Source of the DNA: Cryobacterium sinapicolor
GTDB taxonomy: Bacteria > Actinomycetota > Actinomycetes > Actinomycetales > Microbacteriaceae
Assembly (NCBI RefSeq): GCF_004403465.1
Contig: NZ_SOGQ01000019.1
Span: forward strand, 62,001 to 126,000
Direction of reading: 5' to 3'
Length of the DNA stretch: 64,000 nucleotides
Under the pieces are notes generated by a model. It saw only the letters and a program-made list of their open reading frames with translations, was not told where the DNA came from and did not search any database. The translations under genes and the position numbers were made by a program. Of the stretch, positions 56,631-62,465 are shown piece after piece (positions within the stretch are counted from its first letter, which is position 1; the number at the start of each line of letters is the position of its first letter).

Positions 56631-56638
<8 letters not shown>
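56258..56638 (+). CDS. Cold-shock-domain protein with C-terminal extension
   Basis: The 126-residue protein has a cold-shock domain (residues 1-66: [27 protein letters not shown]) and a helical extension of about 60 residues (MAIIVEDLVKLLDGIGSSLR) common to this actinobacterial group. GAGG lies upstream of ATG 56258. Its 3-prime end overlaps DUF3027 by 8 bp. Confidence 0.92.
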
Positions 56639-57359
<721 letters not shown>

Positions 57360-57463: not shown

Positions 57464-58582
57464 CTACTTGCCCAAGTTCTGCACCACGAACTCGATGGAC
57501 CGCACGAGCTGTCGCACGTCAGTGGGTTCAATCGCGGTGAAGGTGGCGACCCGCAACTGGTTGCGGCCGAGCTTGCGGTAGGGCTCGGTGTCGGAGATCC
57601 CGTTGGTGCGCAGGATCGCTGCGATCGCTGCGGCATCGATCGCGTCGTCGAAGTCGATCGTTGCGACCACCTGTGAGCGGTGCTCCGGGTTGGCGACATA
57701 TGGCGTCGCGTAGGACACGCTCTCGGCCCAGTCGTAGAGAACGGATGACGATTCGAGGGTGCGCGTGGACGCCCACGCCAGGCCGCCGTTCCCGTTGATC
57801 CAGTCGAGCTGGTTCTCGATTAGAAGGAGTGTGGCCACGGCCGGCGTGTTCAGGGTCTGATTGAGGCGCGAGTTGTCGATCGCATTCTTCAGGCTGAGGA
57901 ACTCGGGGATGTAGCGGCCGCTCGCGGCGATCTGCTCGACGCGCTCGATCGCGGCGGGGGAGAAGAGGGCCATCCACAGCCCGCCGTCGGAGGCGAGGTT
58001 CTTCTGCGGGGCGAAGTAGTAGACATCCGCCTGGTCGGCCTCGTAGTCGATGCCGGCCGCCGCGCTCGTGGCGTCGATCACGGTCAGGGCTCCGGGGTCG
58101 GCGACCACGCGGGTGACCGGCGCCATGACTCCGGTCGAGGTCTCGTTCTGGGGCCAGGCGTAGACGTCGACACCCTCGGTCGCCACGAACTCGCTGCGCG
58201 AGCCGGCCTGGGCCGCTATCACATCGGGCGCTTCGAGGAAAGGGGCGGCCGCGGCCGCGGCGAACTTGCCGCCGAACTCGCCGAAGACGAGATTCTGACT
58301 GCGGCGGAGGATAAGGGAGAACGCGGCGGCGTCCCAGAACGCGGTGGACCCGCCATTGCCGATAATGACTTCATAACCGTCAGGGGCGCGGAGGAGGTCC
58401 GCGAGACCGGTGCGCACGCGCCCGACCAAATTCTTAACGGGTGCCTGACGATGGGAAGTACCCATCACGCTCACACCGAACTTCATTAGGTGTTCGAGCT
58501 GTTCCGTTCGGACCTTGGACGGGCCGCAGCCGAATCGTCCATCATCGGGCAGAAGTTCCGTGGGAATTATGAGGTTCGACAT
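57464..58582 (-). CDS. serC: Phosphoserine aminotransferase
   Basis: The 372-residue PLP enzyme of serine synthesis has the actinobacterial SerC form: DGRFGCGPSKVRTEQLEHL, GTSHRQAPVKNLVGRVR, GNGGSTAFWDAAAF, and the PLP lysine in YYFAPQKNLASDGGLW. Length is right for this group. It is the first gene of a minus-strand pair with DUF2530. Confidence 0.96.
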   Translation of the reverse strand: MSNLIIPTELLPDDGRFGCGPSKVRTEQLEHLMKFGVSVMGTSHRQAPVKNLVGRVRTGLADLLRAPDGYEVIIGNGGSTAFWDAAAFSLILRRSQNLVFGEFGGKFAAAAAAPFLEAPDVIAAQAGSRSEFVATEGVDVYAWPQNETSTGVMAPVTRVVADPGALTVIDATSAAAGIDYEADQADVYYFAPQKNLASDGGLWMALFSPAAIERVEQIAASGRYIPEFLSLKNAIDNSRLNQTLNTPAVATLLLIENQLDWINGNGGLAWASTRTLESSSVLYDWAESVSYATPYVANPEHRSQVVATIDFDDAIDAAAIAAILRTNGISDTEPYRKLGRNQLRVATFTAIEPTDVRQLVRSIEFVVQNLGK

Positions 58583-58655
58583 AGGGCGATTCTAATGGCC
58601 GCCCTGGCGGCGATAAGGTTGAGCAGAACGTACCGAGTCGAGAGGAAAGCTGGTC

Positions 58656-59363
58656 ATGACGGATCTGATCGACACCACCGAAATGTACCTCCGCACGATT
58701 CTCGACCTCGAAGAGGAGAACATCGTTCCCCTGCGGGCGCGCATCTCCGAGCGCCTCGGGCACTCCGGTCCGACCGTGTCGCAGACCGTGGCCCGGATGG
58801 AACGGGACGGCCTGGTGGTCGTCTCGGGTGACCGTCACCTCGAGCTCACCGTTGACGGGCGCAGCAAGGCCGTGCACGTGATGCGGAAGCATCGCCTGGC
58901 GGAACGACTGCTGAGCGATGTCATCGGTCTCGAGTGGGAATTCGTGCACGACGAAGCATGCCGGTGGGAGCATGTGATGAGCGAGCGGGTCGAGCGCAAA
59001 ATCCTGGAGATGCTCGGCCATCCGACCGAGTCGCCGTATGGCAACCCGATTCCAGGACTCGATGAGCTGGGCGATTCGCCGGCCGTCGCTTTCATGTCCG
59101 GGGTGACGAGCCTCGTCGATCTGGTCGCCGCGTCCGCGGGTCCGGTCACCGCCGTGGTGCGGCGTCTGGGCGAACCCGTGCAGGTCGACCCCGAACTTCT
59201 GGCCCAGCTGAAGAACTCTGGTGTGCTCCCCGGCAACTCGGGGGTTTTCTCCGCCGTGGGTTCCTATGTGCTCGTGCAGGTGCCGGGGTTCGAGGGCGGT
59301 CTCGAACTGCCCAACGAGGTCGCCGGCCACATCTTCGTCGCCACGCCGCTCTCCGCCGCGTAG
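58656..59363 (+). CDS. DtxR/IdeR-type iron-dependent repressor
   Basis: A 235-residue regulator with an N-terminal winged helix (TTEMYLRTILDLEEENIVPL, GPTVSQTVARMERDGLV), the metal-binding and dimerisation domain, and a C-terminal SH3-like domain (from about residue 150). Metal ligands occupy the DtxR positions: Met10, Cys102, Glu105, His106 in one site and His79, Glu83, His98 in the other. It should repress iron uptake when ferrous iron is abundant. No partner gene is nearby. Confidence 0.93.
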   Translation: MTDLIDTTEMYLRTILDLEEENIVPLRARISERLGHSGPTVSQTVARMERDGLVVVSGDRHLELTVDGRSKAVHVMRKHRLAERLLSDVIGLEWEFVHDEACRWEHVMSERVERKILEMLGHPTESPYGNPIPGLDELGDSPAVAFMSGVTSLVDLVAASAGPVTAVVRRLGEPVQVDPELLAQLKNSGVLPGNSGVFSAVGSYVLVQVPGFEGGLELPNEVAGHIFVATPLSAA

Positions 59364-59419
59364 CCGCCCTCCCGGCACGGCTCAGCCGTCGAAATTCGAC
59401 CCTCGACACCGGATATTTT

Positions 59420-59435
59420 GTTACCAATCTGTTAG
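59420..59435 (+). promoter_or_regulatory. MtrA-like box upstream of the NlpC/P60 gene
   Basis: GTTAC-CAATCT-GTTAG is close to the GTNAC-N6-GTNAC motif of the actinobacterial MtrA regulator. A further pair GTCAC-GTAAC lies at 59470-59479. They are about 150-200 bp before the gene. Confidence 0.45.
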
Positions 59436-59627
59436 AAAAGTCGGTCTTCAGCGTGACAAGTAGTTGAACGTCACGTAACTTGGAGGCGTCCACAGGTCAA
59501 ATTCCGGCCGACGGACACGGATCAAGACGCCTTTCTTTCCCGTCTCTTGCTTCGTTCCTCACACACGCGATGAGCGCAGTGGACGGGGCAACTACCTAGT
59601 GTTGTCGAGGCGCCGGAGGTAATTACT

Positions 59628-60491
59628 TTGGCCGAATTAGGTAAGAAACTGTTCCGTCGAGCCCCGAACTCGACATCCATCAGCACCGCTTCCAGAACCA
59701 ACGATCACGAACATACTGAGCTCAGCCACTATCGAGCCGCCCGTGCTCGTCCCACCCCGAGGTCACGCCGCCGCGGCGCCGTGGCGAACATCGTCTTCAT
59801 GACACTCGCCGGCGGCCTCGTCGCGACCATGGCCATTCCGGCCTATGCGTTCGCTCCGACGGAGGATGAGTACGCGTCCACGGCCTCGAACGAGCTGACC
59901 GAGTCGGGTGCGCAGACCGTGGAGGTCGCTGCCGCGGCCGATACCGTCAGCGTCTCGCGCGACGGGTTCACGGCCACCACTCCTGAGGAGCTGGCCGCGG
60001 CAGCGGCGGCCGCCGCTGCCGCGGTTGCCTCGGCCGAGGCGGCCGCCGCCGAGGAGCGCCGCCAGGAGGCCGCGGCGGCGATGACCTCCTACGCCGCGTC
60101 GTATTCCGGTCCGTCGTCGGCCGACTACCTGGCGGCACCAGCCCACTCGAGTTTCGACCTGGCATCCGTCTACGGCGTCGCCTCGGGTTACCAGGGTGTT
60201 CCGTATGTCTACGGCGGGGCCACCCCGGCCGGCTTCGACTGCTCCGGGTTCGTCATGTACGTCTACGCGCAGTTCGGCATCTCGCTGCCGCACTCGTCAA
60301 CCGGGCAGGGCGCGGCCGGCACCCGCATCCCCGAATCGGAGGCTCAGCCGGGCGACCTCGTCATCATGGACGGCCACGACGGGTTCTACGCCGGCAACGG
60401 CAACATCCTGCATGCGCCGTACGAGGGGGCGTCCGTGCGCGTGCAGCCGATTTGGACCAGCTCGTACTACATCGTGCGGATCGGCGGCTGA
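59628..60491 (+). CDS. Exported NlpC/P60 peptidoglycan hydrolase
   Basis: The 287-residue protein begins with TTG at 59628, GGAGG being 8 bp upstream. It has a long basic cytosolic n-region (about 50 residues), a hydrophobic signal helix (VANIVFMTLAGGLVATMAIP) and a PAYAFAP cleavage region. A shared motif VSRDGFTATTPEEL, an Ala/Glu-rich linker and an NlpC/P60 endopeptidase domain follow, with Cys in FDCSGFV, His in GHDGFYAGNG and a third polar residue in ILHAP. It probably cleaves stem-peptide bonds during growth or division. Confidence 0.93.
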   Translation: MAELGKKLFRRAPNSTSISTASRTNDHEHTELSHYRAARARPTPRSRRRGAVANIVFMTLAGGLVATMAIPAYAFAPTEDEYASTASNELTESGAQTVEVAAAADTVSVSRDGFTATTPEELAAAAAAAAAAVASAEAAAAEERRQEAAAAMTSYAASYSGPSSADYLAAPAHSSFDLASVYGVASGYQGVPYVYGGATPAGFDCSGFVMYVYAQFGISLPHSSTGQGAAGTRIPESEAQPGDLVIMDGHDGFYAGNGNILHAPYEGASVRVQPIWTSSYYIVRIGG

Positions 60492-60589
60492 GCCCGACCG
60501 ATCCCCAGATGAATGTTTCGTAACACCTAGCACATTCGGCGTCCCGCTCTTAGCAGGGGCGCCGAATGTGGGTTAACCTATAGCTCTGA

Positions 60590-60757
60590 TGTTCTGTGAG
60601 TCTTCGGGAGAGCCCATGCGCGAGCGGCGCACGATCCACACCATGGATGTGCGCTGCCGCTCCGCGTTGGGGCAGAGCAGTCGAGCAAACCTGAGTTGCG
60701 CGTGTCTGGGACACGGTGTGACCGGTAGGGCGTTGTCATTGTGACGGCGCTCTTTTT
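60590..60757 (+). ncRNA. Candidate structured small RNA or leader before the HNH gene
   Basis: A 346-bp gap separates two genes. It holds a long hairpin (60619-60666: CGC-GAGCGGC-GCAC-ATCCA stem with small bulges and loop CACCA), a perfect 6-bp hairpin CGTGTC-TGG-GACACG (60701-60715), and an intrinsic terminator (60728-60738 with 60742-60752, three G-U pairs, then TTTTT). A -10-like TATAGC is at 60579-60584. This suggests a transcript of about 170 nt, ending 80 bp before the HNH start. I do not recognise it as a known family. Confidence 0.5.
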
Positions 60758-60837
60758 GTTTGCCTGTTCGCTCCTTCTTGCCGATTGTCGTAGTTCGAAT
60801 GGCTGGAAGCCGTCCAGCCCTTTTCGAAAGGGAACGC

Positions 60838-61335
60838 ATGCGCACACTGGTCCTCAATGCGGGATATGAGCCCCTCGCCGTGGTGTCTTTCAAACGAGCA
60901 CTCGTGCTGGTGATGAATCACAAGGCAACGATCGTGCAGTCCGACCAGGGGCATCCGATCTACGCCGCCTCCGGTTCCTGGGAACGGCCGAGCGTCATCC
61001 TGCTCACGCGCTATGTGCGCATCCCGCGGTCCCGGGCCGTGCCGGTCAGCCGGCGGGGCGTGCTGCGTCGGGACGAGCACCGCTGCGGGTACTGCGGCAA
61101 GACGGCCAGCACGATCGACCACGTGCAGCCTCGGTCGCGAGGAGGGCGGGACACCTGGGACAACCTCGTGGCCTGCTGCCTGCGCTGCAACAACCTCAAG
61201 AGCGACCGCACGCCGGCCGAGATGGGCTGGAAACTCCTGTTCCACCCAGGGTTGCCGGTCGGTACGACCTGGGTGGTGCGCGGCGCCGAGCGACCGCTGC
61301 CGCAGTGGGACGAGTTCCTGGCTCCCGCGGCCTGA
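60838..61335 (+). CDS. HNH endonuclease family protein
   Basis: The 165-residue protein has an N-terminal segment (MRTLVLNAGYEPLAVVSFKR, ALVLVMNHKATIV) and a C-terminal HNH/zinc domain: CGYCGK zinc knuckle, the HNH core TIDHVQPRSRGGRDTWDNLV and the second zinc pair CCLRCNNLK. This protein is widespread in actinobacteria and is not a mobile IscB-type nuclease, having no RuvC domain. Target unknown. GAAAGGG precedes ATG 60838. Confidence 0.92.
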   Translation: MRTLVLNAGYEPLAVVSFKRALVLVMNHKATIVQSDQGHPIYAASGSWERPSVILLTRYVRIPRSRAVPVSRRGVLRRDEHRCGYCGKTASTIDHVQPRSRGGRDTWDNLVACCLRCNNLKSDRTPAEMGWKLLFHPGLPVGTTWVVRGAERPLPQWDEFLAPAA

Positions 61336-61344
61336 GTGAGAAAT

Positions 61345-61360
61345 ATAACGGAGATGTAAC
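61345..61360 (+). promoter_or_regulatory. MtrA-like box upstream of the CHAP gene
   Basis: ATAAC-GGAGAT-GTAAC fits the GTNAC-N6-GTNAC pattern with one change, 83 bp before the start of the CHAP-domain gene. Confidence 0.5.
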
Positions 61361-61442
61361 GCCAGAAAGTGACTTACTGGTCGCCGTCGCCTAAGATTGA
61401 AGGGCGCCGAACCCCGATCTTGGTGCGTTAGAGGATCATCTT

Positions 61443-62465
61443 TTGCCCCAATCCGGCCCACCCGGCACTTCTGGTTCGCCAGAGGCCCCGAATTCGGTTC
61501 CCACGCGCCGCGAACTGCGTGCGCAGCGCGAGGCGGCAGAGAACCCAGTCGACGTCACCGTGAACATTCCGGTGGGCGTGAACGCGTCGGCTGCCGTGCC
61601 CGTTCCGGTGGCGATTGTAGAAACTCCGATGTCGGATTCCGACCTGGCCTCCATCGTGACCCGGAGCAACCGGCTCAATCCGGTCGCGCCGCCGCGAGCG
61701 GTTCCGGCAGTCAGCCGCCCGGTGCCTCGGTCGCGCCGCCGGCGCCCGTTGAAGATCGCCGTAACCCTGCTGGCCATCCCCGGACTGTTCCTCACCGCCG
61801 GACTTCCGGCCTATGCGTTCGCCCCCGGCGCGGACGACACCGTCACCGCGACCGCGCGGGAAGTCGATGCGCAGGGTGTCACGGTGGCCAATGGCGCCGC
61901 AGCCATCACCGTGGCCCGCGACGGCTTCTCGGCGACCACCAGCGAGGAACTCGCCGAGCGGGATGCCGAGGCCAAGCGCGTGCTGGCTGCTCAGCAGTCC
62001 GCTGAGGCTGCTCGTTCGGCCGCATCGGACTTCGCCGTCTACAGCGTGCGCGCCAAGGGCGACGACTATCCCTGGTACGACCGCGCCACCGACACCCAGG
62101 GTGGCGGGCTGTCTCCGCTCGGCTACTATTACCGCGAATGTGTCGACTTCGTGGCGTGGCGGCTCAACCGCGACGCCGGCTCCACCGGCTCCCCGTGGAC
62201 CTGGACCTGGAGCAAGCTCACCCCCGGCGGCGGCAACGCGAGCGCTTGGGCCAGCGCCTGGGCCGATCACGGCTGGGCCACCGGCGACACTCCCGTCGTC
62301 GGCGCCGTCGCCTGGTTCAATTACAACCACGTGGCCTATGTGCAGTCGGTCAACAGCGACGGTTCGGTCATCCTCGAGGAATACAACTGGAACAGCAGCC
62401 ACGCCTACCACACGCGCACCGTGTCGGCCAGTGAGGTTCCACTCTTCTTGTACCCGCCGGCGTAG
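61443..62465 (+). CDS. Exported CHAP-domain peptidoglycan amidase/endopeptidase
   Basis: The 340-residue protein starts at TTG 61443 with AGAGGA upstream. It has a cytosolic n-region of about 100 residues, a signal helix (IAVTLLAIPGLFLTAGLPAY) and the AYAFAPG cleavage region. The module VARDGFSATTSEEL resembles the other hydrolase, and a C-terminal CHAP domain carries Cys in RECVDFVAWRLN and His in YNHVAYVQSV. It should cut peptidoglycan stem peptides or the amide bond. Confidence 0.92.
   Translation: MPQSGPPGTSGSPEAPNSVPTRRELRAQREAAENPVDVTVNIPVGVNASAAVPVPVAIVETPMSDSDLASIVTRSNRLNPVAPPRAVPAVSRPVPRSRRRRPLKIAVTLLAIPGLFLTAGLPAYAFAPGADDTVTATAREVDAQGVTVANGAAAITVARDGFSATTSEELAERDAEAKRVLAAQQSAEAARSAASDFAVYSVRAKGDDYPWYDRATDTQGGGLSPLGYYYRECVDFVAWRLNRDAGSTGSPWTWTWSKLTPGGGNASAWASAWADHGWATGDTPVVGAVAWFNYNHVAYVQSVNSDGSVILEEYNWNSSHAYHTRTVSASEVPLFLYPPA

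Follow-up and report, generated by a model that had tools for sequence, protein, structure and literature searches.

One N-terminal module on unrelated cell-wall hydrolases of the Microbacteriaceae, possibly a docking or targeting tag

For most Gram-positive bacteria it is, to our knowledge, unsettled what keeps wall-cutting enzymes at their proper site. The question is raised by two nearby genes in a 64,000-nucleotide stretch of the Cryobacterium sinapicolor genome (contig NZ_SOGQ01000019.1, positions 62,001 to 126,000; hereafter the window), encoding an NlpC/P60 endopeptidase (59628..60491, forward strand) and a CHAP-domain hydrolase (61443..62465, forward strand). Why should two enzymes with unrelated catalytic domains begin with the same kind of segment? 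An original prediction, made from the DNA letters, proposed a reusable N-terminal module with swapped catalytic domains, and this is borne out by a profile that recovers the module on six kinds of C-terminal domain and by a module tree that needs exchange between catalytic classes. The reading developed here, to which we give roughly an even chance, is that one mobile Microbacteriaceae module sits on unrelated peptidoglycan hydrolases and docks or targets them to a common envelope partner.

The two proteins share a front end of three parts, all encoded on the forward strand. Both open reading frames (ORFs) were confirmed, each with its TTG start. The cytoplasmic n-regions are long, as had been predicted, about 46 residues in the NlpC/P60 protein (residues 1-46, 59628..59765, a boundary that is approximate and set by inspection) and about 97 in the CHAP protein; both contain basic stretches, and their mutual similarity is weak (alignment score 45, with 4 of 2000 shuffles as high). 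A signal or anchor segment ending in PAYA follows, assigned from sequence and model (residues 47-74, 59766..59849, and residues ~98-125, 61734..61817). The shared mature module comes next, as FAP...AQTVEV...VSVSRDGFTATTPEEL in the NlpC/P60 protein (residues 75-122, 59850..59993; alignment, profile and conservation) and FAP...AQGVTV...ITVARDGFSATTSEEL in the CHAP protein (residues 126-170, 61818..61952; alignment and conservation). PAYAFAP begins at residue 71 and 122, respectively, RDGF at 111 and 159, and EEL ends at 122 and 170. The conserved core also holds a near-invariant Q, 15 columns before RD, with V or L at Q+2 and V at Q+4. Beyond this front end the catalytic domains are unrelated. 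The NlpC/P60 domain (residues 190-275, 60195..60452) scores 87.1 bits against PF00877 (gathering cut-off 23, E 9.2e-25) and the CHAP domain (residues 226-315, 62118..62387) scores 60.2 bits against PF05257 (gathering cut-off 26, E 2.7e-16). Cys205 and His250 are invariant in the former (57 aligned rows), as are Cys233 and His296 in the latter (22 rows); we take these to be the catalytic residues.

The simplest alternative is compositional resemblance among alanine- and valine-rich secreted proteins, and the module segments are indeed rich in A, V, T and S. Local alignment of the mature segments alone (48 versus 45 amino acids) gives a score of 92, against a mean of 28.6 (standard deviation 5.1) and a maximum of 50 among 2000 shuffles, none of which reaches 92. 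Signal region and mature segment together score 135, again with no shuffle of 2000 as high, and the pair is identical at 34/77 positions over signal and module. The predicted common motif, a PAYAFAP signal end followed by V-x-RDGF-x-ATT-x-EEL, is thus not a product of chance or composition, which the shuffles and the family-limited profile matches described below rule out; we leave it next to no probability.

The module corresponds to no known domain in the collections searched. Pfam returned no match at E <= 1 over it (NlpC/P60 residues 71-122, CHAP residues 122-170), the NCBIfam stretches overlapping it belong to whole-protein models far under their cut-offs with no module-specific match, and a PDB profile search gave at best E 0.68 and 0.85. 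Within the C. sinapicolor genome, the 58-residue NlpC/P60 segment used as query matched the CHAP copy (E 1.5e-7) and a third copy in an M23 peptidase on another contig, outside the window (locus L003, E 1.3e-4). A fourth match (L004, E 0.996) is a reverse frame of another gene and was dropped.

Profile searching, the check proposed with the original prediction, recovered the module family-wide. The single segment matched 79 of 150 family genomes at E <= 0.1, and profile A2, built from 22 module segments and used at E <= 0.01, matched 142 of 199 Microbacteriaceae genomes. An order-wide sample gave matches in 13 of 198 genomes, all of them Microbacteriaceae and none in another family. Four of 246 genomes matched in a phylum sample, two from Microbacteriaceae and two others at E 0.002 and 0.006; the latter (L060, L061) are TetR-like by eye and were dropped as false positives. 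In these samples the module is restricted to one family, the Microbacteriaceae. The expectation that other C-terminal domains would be found attached to it stood, and the range first suggested for it, actinobacterial proteomes at large, proved too wide. A phage or plasmid origin was considered and set aside, as tblastn of the 58-residue module against phages and plasmids gave no match at E <= 1. One Leifsonia plasmid encodes an M15-like protein whose signal end is similar and whose degenerate module goes undetected by the profile.

What the module carries appears limited to wall enzymes. Carriers were collected from loci of the own-genome, family and phylum searches and from 120 further places, mostly the next-best among the A2 family-search matches listed (the full match list is longer), with some weak single-segment or order-sample ones. 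A hidden Markov model found 162 distinct ORF sequences; four were cut by the end of the locus and dropped, and 158 had at least 90 residues beyond the module. C-terminal clustering of these, with cluster representatives checked against Pfam, gave NlpC/P60 (83), M23 (34), CHAP (25), two unnamed clusters (8 and 5), SLT (1) and TetR-like (2). Of the 156 carrier rows, three repeat a gene already counted, taken up again from an overlapping locus; there are thus 153 distinct genes, with NlpC/P60 (82), M23 (34), CHAP (25), lysozyme-like (8), M15-like (3) and SLT (1) domains. Two further divergent M23 carriers came from weaker matches (E 3.3e-4 and 1.8e-3). The weak places L182, L183 and L184 were not confirmed as carriers, and L184 (E 0.15) does not resemble a hydrolase.

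By this means the module flags two C-terminal domains without a Pfam name. The first, with the pattern RWMRQENG...WWNRNNPLNNGxGSGGGSGLGSY, is found in secreted proteins of eight loci (L137, L163, L164, L165, L170, L172, L173 and L176); judged by eye it is similar to lysozyme-like enzymes and is perhaps a lysozyme-like family. The second, with the pattern SPHYRxGGGHAVDF...HxHVDF, occurs at L125, L130 and L162 and at the plasmid loci L403 and L404; HYRxGGGHAVDF...HxHVDF may be read as M15-like zinc ligands. Relatives of this second domain lie on plasmids of Clavibacter, Curtobacterium, Leifsonia and others, and in a Clavibacter plasmid protein the M15-like relative stands behind a segment read as lysozyme-like. 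Among the rows scanned, neither unnamed domain had a match of weight in Pfam, NCBIfam, PHROGs or PDB profiles, and the phage search named none.

The module also marks particular members of each catalytic family. The C. sinapicolor genome has three NlpC/P60, two CHAP and seven M23 family matches, with one module match per class. In 14 genomes with 34 NlpC matches, each genome has exactly one NlpC gene with the module, 14 in all; of the remaining 20 NlpC genes, 18 were checked (19 rows, one gene appearing twice) and all lack it. For M23 the split is less clean, with three clear rows, one at E 3e-4 and four between E 0.03 and 2.

The module has been exchanged between catalytic classes. In a tree of 94 signal-plus-module rows (83 columns, long branches, 40 NlpC rows drawn at random), the NlpC, M23 and CHAP labels need 6, 5 and 6 changes, with 4, 3 and 3 of them enforced by starred branches; the tree requires transfers between the classes. 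The M15-like modules (5 rows, 3 genes) fall within the NlpC modules, nearest to the NlpC gene adjoining one of them (support 99/87). In a tree of M23 domains (68 rows) the module is found in two separate well-supported clades (98/95 and 100/100) and in a single row on its own; none of the bootstrap trees has a single change, and the starred branches alone allow one origin. Seven pairs of adjacent carriers are 38-62% identical over signal and module, and the C-terminal clusters differ in six of the seven, the exception being one M23-M23 pair.

This sharing between adjacent genes, like the nesting of M15-like modules beside a neighbouring NlpC gene, also favours a second explanation, an expression-and-secretion cassette. 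Duplication of a 5' end (MtrA-like-box promoter, ribosome-binding site, signal peptide and linker) would bring new catalytic domains under its control, the mature segment being a passive linker. It gains further from the upstream repeats described below, the majority of which, across 80 loci, stand next to module-type NlpC, M23 or CHAP genes. We hold it to be unlikely: a passive linker would explain neither why single residues stand out in conservation from those around them across classes nor why the core outlasts a change of signal peptide. Across 156 rows, conservation is strong at the P, A, Y and A of PAYA, at a lone Q and at V, R, D, A, T/S, E and L, with weaker columns in between; Q reaches 4.3 bits, D 3.6, A 3.4 and R 3.2, with most adjoining columns at 1-2. 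The h-region of the signal is conserved across catalytic classes. The mature segment of ~45 residues has the core Q-x-[VL]-x-V...V-x-R-D-x-[YF]-x-A-T-[ST]-x-x-E-[LI] and runs on into a helix; this core is retained in the lysozyme-like and SLT carriers despite their different signal peptides.

Little fold is predicted for the module. AlphaFold2 models, from alignments of 57 rows (NlpC/P60) and 22 rows (CHAP), show a confident NlpC domain and a CHAP domain with weaker stretches. The mean predicted local distance difference test score (pLDDT) within the module is 48-55 for NlpC/P60 residues 71-110 and 36-48 for CHAP residues 121-160. Signal-segment helices are predicted with low confidence at 51-68 (NlpC/P60) and 102-119 (CHAP). 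Foldseek with the NlpC/P60 model gave NlpC/P60 domains as best matches, including those of RipA and RipB. Localisation or partner binding, as originally suggested, fits the low-confidence fold together with conservation of isolated residues. We infer docking because conservation is peaked with little predicted fold, because the core is kept even where the signal peptide differs, and because the cargo is seemingly limited to wall enzymes.

The proposed mechanism runs as follows. The front end combines a cytoplasmic segment that is long and basic, a conserved signal or anchor ending in LPAYA and a mature segment of ~45 residues, and it has been joined more than once to unrelated peptidoglycan hydrolases. 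Its conserved mature core, as an extended peptide, would bind a common partner in the envelope, at either the septum or the membrane, and so dock the enzyme there; enzymes of different specificity would thereby act at the same place and time. The same tag would let different enzymes plug into one machine, and the setting would most likely be daughter-cell separation under MtrA control.

A third explanation takes the module for a membrane stalk or pro-segment. LPAYA would be an uncleaved type II anchor, or one cleaved late, and the module would keep the enzyme near the membrane or inactive until release. The conserved hydrophobic segment speaks for it, as do the long cytoplasmic n-region with its recurring helical motif and the confident helix (residues 119-158) that precedes the NlpC domain in the model. 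In RipA-type enzymes, helices are said to hold the enzyme inactive until released. AYA, however, is a standard signal-peptidase I end, and it is improbable that a single inhibitor segment would serve six active sites unrelated to one another; we regard this explanation as quite unlikely.

Upstream DNA links a subset of the module genes. An MtrA-box-like direct repeat with an 11-bp period, GTTACCAATCTGTTA (59420..59434, forward strand), lies 208 bp before the NlpC/P60 start, and a second, GTTACATCTCCGTTA (61346..61360, reverse strand), 97 bp before the CHAP start. The strict form GTTA-N7-GTTA has two sites in the window, where 0.04 are expected, both upstream of module genes only, and no shuffle out of 100 has two. 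Counted on one strand and with duplicates included, the strict repeat is found at 35/154 carriers, as compared with 0.0 in ten simple Markov shuffles. In the 80 named loci (803 kb), the best 80 of 589 from a search with the NlpC alignment, there are 31 repeats, of which 23 lie near the NlpC gene (22 loci), four upstream of the Labedella module-bearing M23 genes, two upstream of CHAP and two elsewhere. A looser box, CGTTAC-N5-CGTTA with one mismatch, was uninformative (13 own-genome sites versus 15 in the reversed control), and the genes near six looser-box sites in this genome gave no clear picture.

MtrA itself (NF040689) scores over the curated cut-off in 8/8 genomes, that of C. sinapicolor included. 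The MtrA box of Corynebacterium glutamicum is given as (A/G)TAACAATttn(A/G)TAACAAT in the available part of PMC3353115, and similar MtrA repeats are reported for Streptomyces and Mycobacterium tuberculosis in the accessible portions of PMC5650626 and PMC6265350. Mycobacterial MtrA targets wall-enzyme genes such as ripA and rpf, according to the same portion of PMC6265350. The window repeats resemble the C. glutamicum box as TAAC direct repeats of 11-bp period upstream of wall hydrolases, and differ from it in being sequence-based predictions. On the docking reading, the module would bring different hydrolases into a single wall-remodelling programme, probably an MtrA-controlled one. Upstream of the module genes an Rfam scan found no riboswitch or other RNA at E <= 1, and a scan of 59350-61500 found no sigma-70-type promoter.

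The cytoplasmic part of the front end has a recurring feature of its own. The motif [ST]R[RK]-x-[LIASR]-R (restricted x) occurs in the cytoplasmic region of 66/153 carriers, as compared with 2.4 in shuffles (NlpC 26/82, M23 21/34, CHAP 16/25, M15-like 3/3, lysozyme-like 0/8, SLT 0/1). The window NlpC/P60 protein is not among the matches. In the CHAP protein it takes the form TRRELRAQRE (residues 21-30, 61503..61532, forward strand; motif and model), and AlphaFold2 places a short helix at 22-33, with pLDDT 84 over residues 21-30. A DNA pattern for one form of the motif has four matches in the own genome, the CHAP and M23 carriers and two in seemingly non-coding frames. As a marker for module proteins alone [ST]RRxLR was rejected, for it also occurs in L374 and L375, tail-anchored membrane proteins without the module, and, in a VanY-like protein from another family (L368), ahead of the membrane segment. 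The motif is wider than the module, because it is found in these non-carriers and because its DNA pattern is no commoner in 12 genomes than in the reversed control (64 versus 71); it may serve more broadly in the order as a signal of envelope proteins.

A bolder form of the docking proposal, which we advance tentatively and hold to be somewhat doubtful, is that one Microbacteriaceae envelope receptor reads Q-x-V-x-V...RD[GN][YF]xATT and gathers endopeptidases, amidases and glycosidases of unrelated fold at the division site, all jointly switched by MtrA. Perhaps the cytoplasmic [ST]RRxLR helix is read as well, before export.

Several observations weigh against docking on a common partner. The module is not indispensable, because 57/199 family genomes have no module match at E <= 0.01, because 16/80 named loci have an NlpC gene without one (among them Cellulomonas and lineages named Rhodoluna, Aurantimicrobium and Aquiluna), and because each of the sister species G078, G141 and G193 has a single weak CHAP match and nothing close to the CHAP gene of the window. 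The strict repeat is present in 37 of the 151 carriers with enough upstream DNA (NlpC 30/81, M23 4/33, CHAP 2/25, SLT 1/1, lysozyme-like 0/8, M15-like 0/3), and the 30 NlpC cases are orthologues sharing ancestry. Two of the six catalytic kinds are termed hydrolases by resemblance alone and are best called putative. Low pLDDT falls short of proving disorder, and the RDGF...EEL end has a mean pLDDT of 76 in both models (residues 111-120 and 161-170), with a helix starting at 119 and 167. Among the strongest doubts is cassette duplication that copied promoter and signal peptide together, unlikely as we hold it to be.

The gene neighbourhood is well kept. In the window serC, dtxR and the HNH gene accompany NlpC/P60 within 57464-62465, and the order serC-dtxR-NlpC-HNH recurs in the named loci, each of the three neighbours being present in 77/80. 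These loci come from Cryobacterium, Glaciibacter, Agromyces, Leifsonia, Rathayibacter, Curtobacterium, Frigoribacterium and others, a few vaguely or oddly named metagenome-assembled genomes and one Cellulomonas, and these names identify the family as Microbacteriaceae; 64/80 have an NlpC gene with the module at E <= 0.01, and 18 of their 21 CHAP rows carry it. In two Labedella loci the module-bearing M23 gene sits between dtxR and NlpC. In the window an HNH endonuclease gene (60760..61335, forward strand; Pfam) lies between the two hydrolase genes. The window NlpC/P60 gene is preceded by GGAGG (59615-59619). After a Shine-Dalgarno-like site, the NlpC start codon in 82 genes is TTG in 57, GTG in 9 and ATG in 1, with none found in 15. 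TTG seems to be the preferred NlpC start across the family, and the pairing of a strong ribosome-binding site with a weak start codon may act as a conserved brake. Elsewhere in the window, the ORF at 56631-57359 has an unbroken run of 38 aspartates in mid-protein.

No earlier description of the module was found in the open-access literature, as judged by titles and the beginnings of abstracts. It offers a sequence signature for Microbacteriaceae wall hydrolases. A tag common to unrelated hydrolases is also directly useful for experiments, with a single motif to mutate and a single partner to look for, and it comes with a predicted regulon. Among known systems, the nearest in kind are the YSIRK/GxxS signal peptides of staphylococci and streptococci, which direct septal secretion according to the available part of PMC5962339; as described there, they too are a conserved signal-peptide feature common to many surface proteins of one lineage. 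In contrast, the YSIRK/GxxS pattern (our own regular expression) occurs in 0/153 carrier genes and an LPxTG end in 0/156 carrier rows, a main conserved core of the module lies beyond the signal end, and its cargo consists of hydrolases. RipA, RipB and RipC of mycobacteria share the NlpC/P60 fold, and RipA is an MtrA target in the accessible text of PMC6265350. The window NlpC/P60 protein stands apart from them, scoring 69.1 of 625 bits against the RipA model (NF033741) and 84.5 of 425 against that of RipC (NF038345), both far under the curated cut-offs, and having a different front end. Set beside these systems, we rate the module as a lineage-specific export or docking module.

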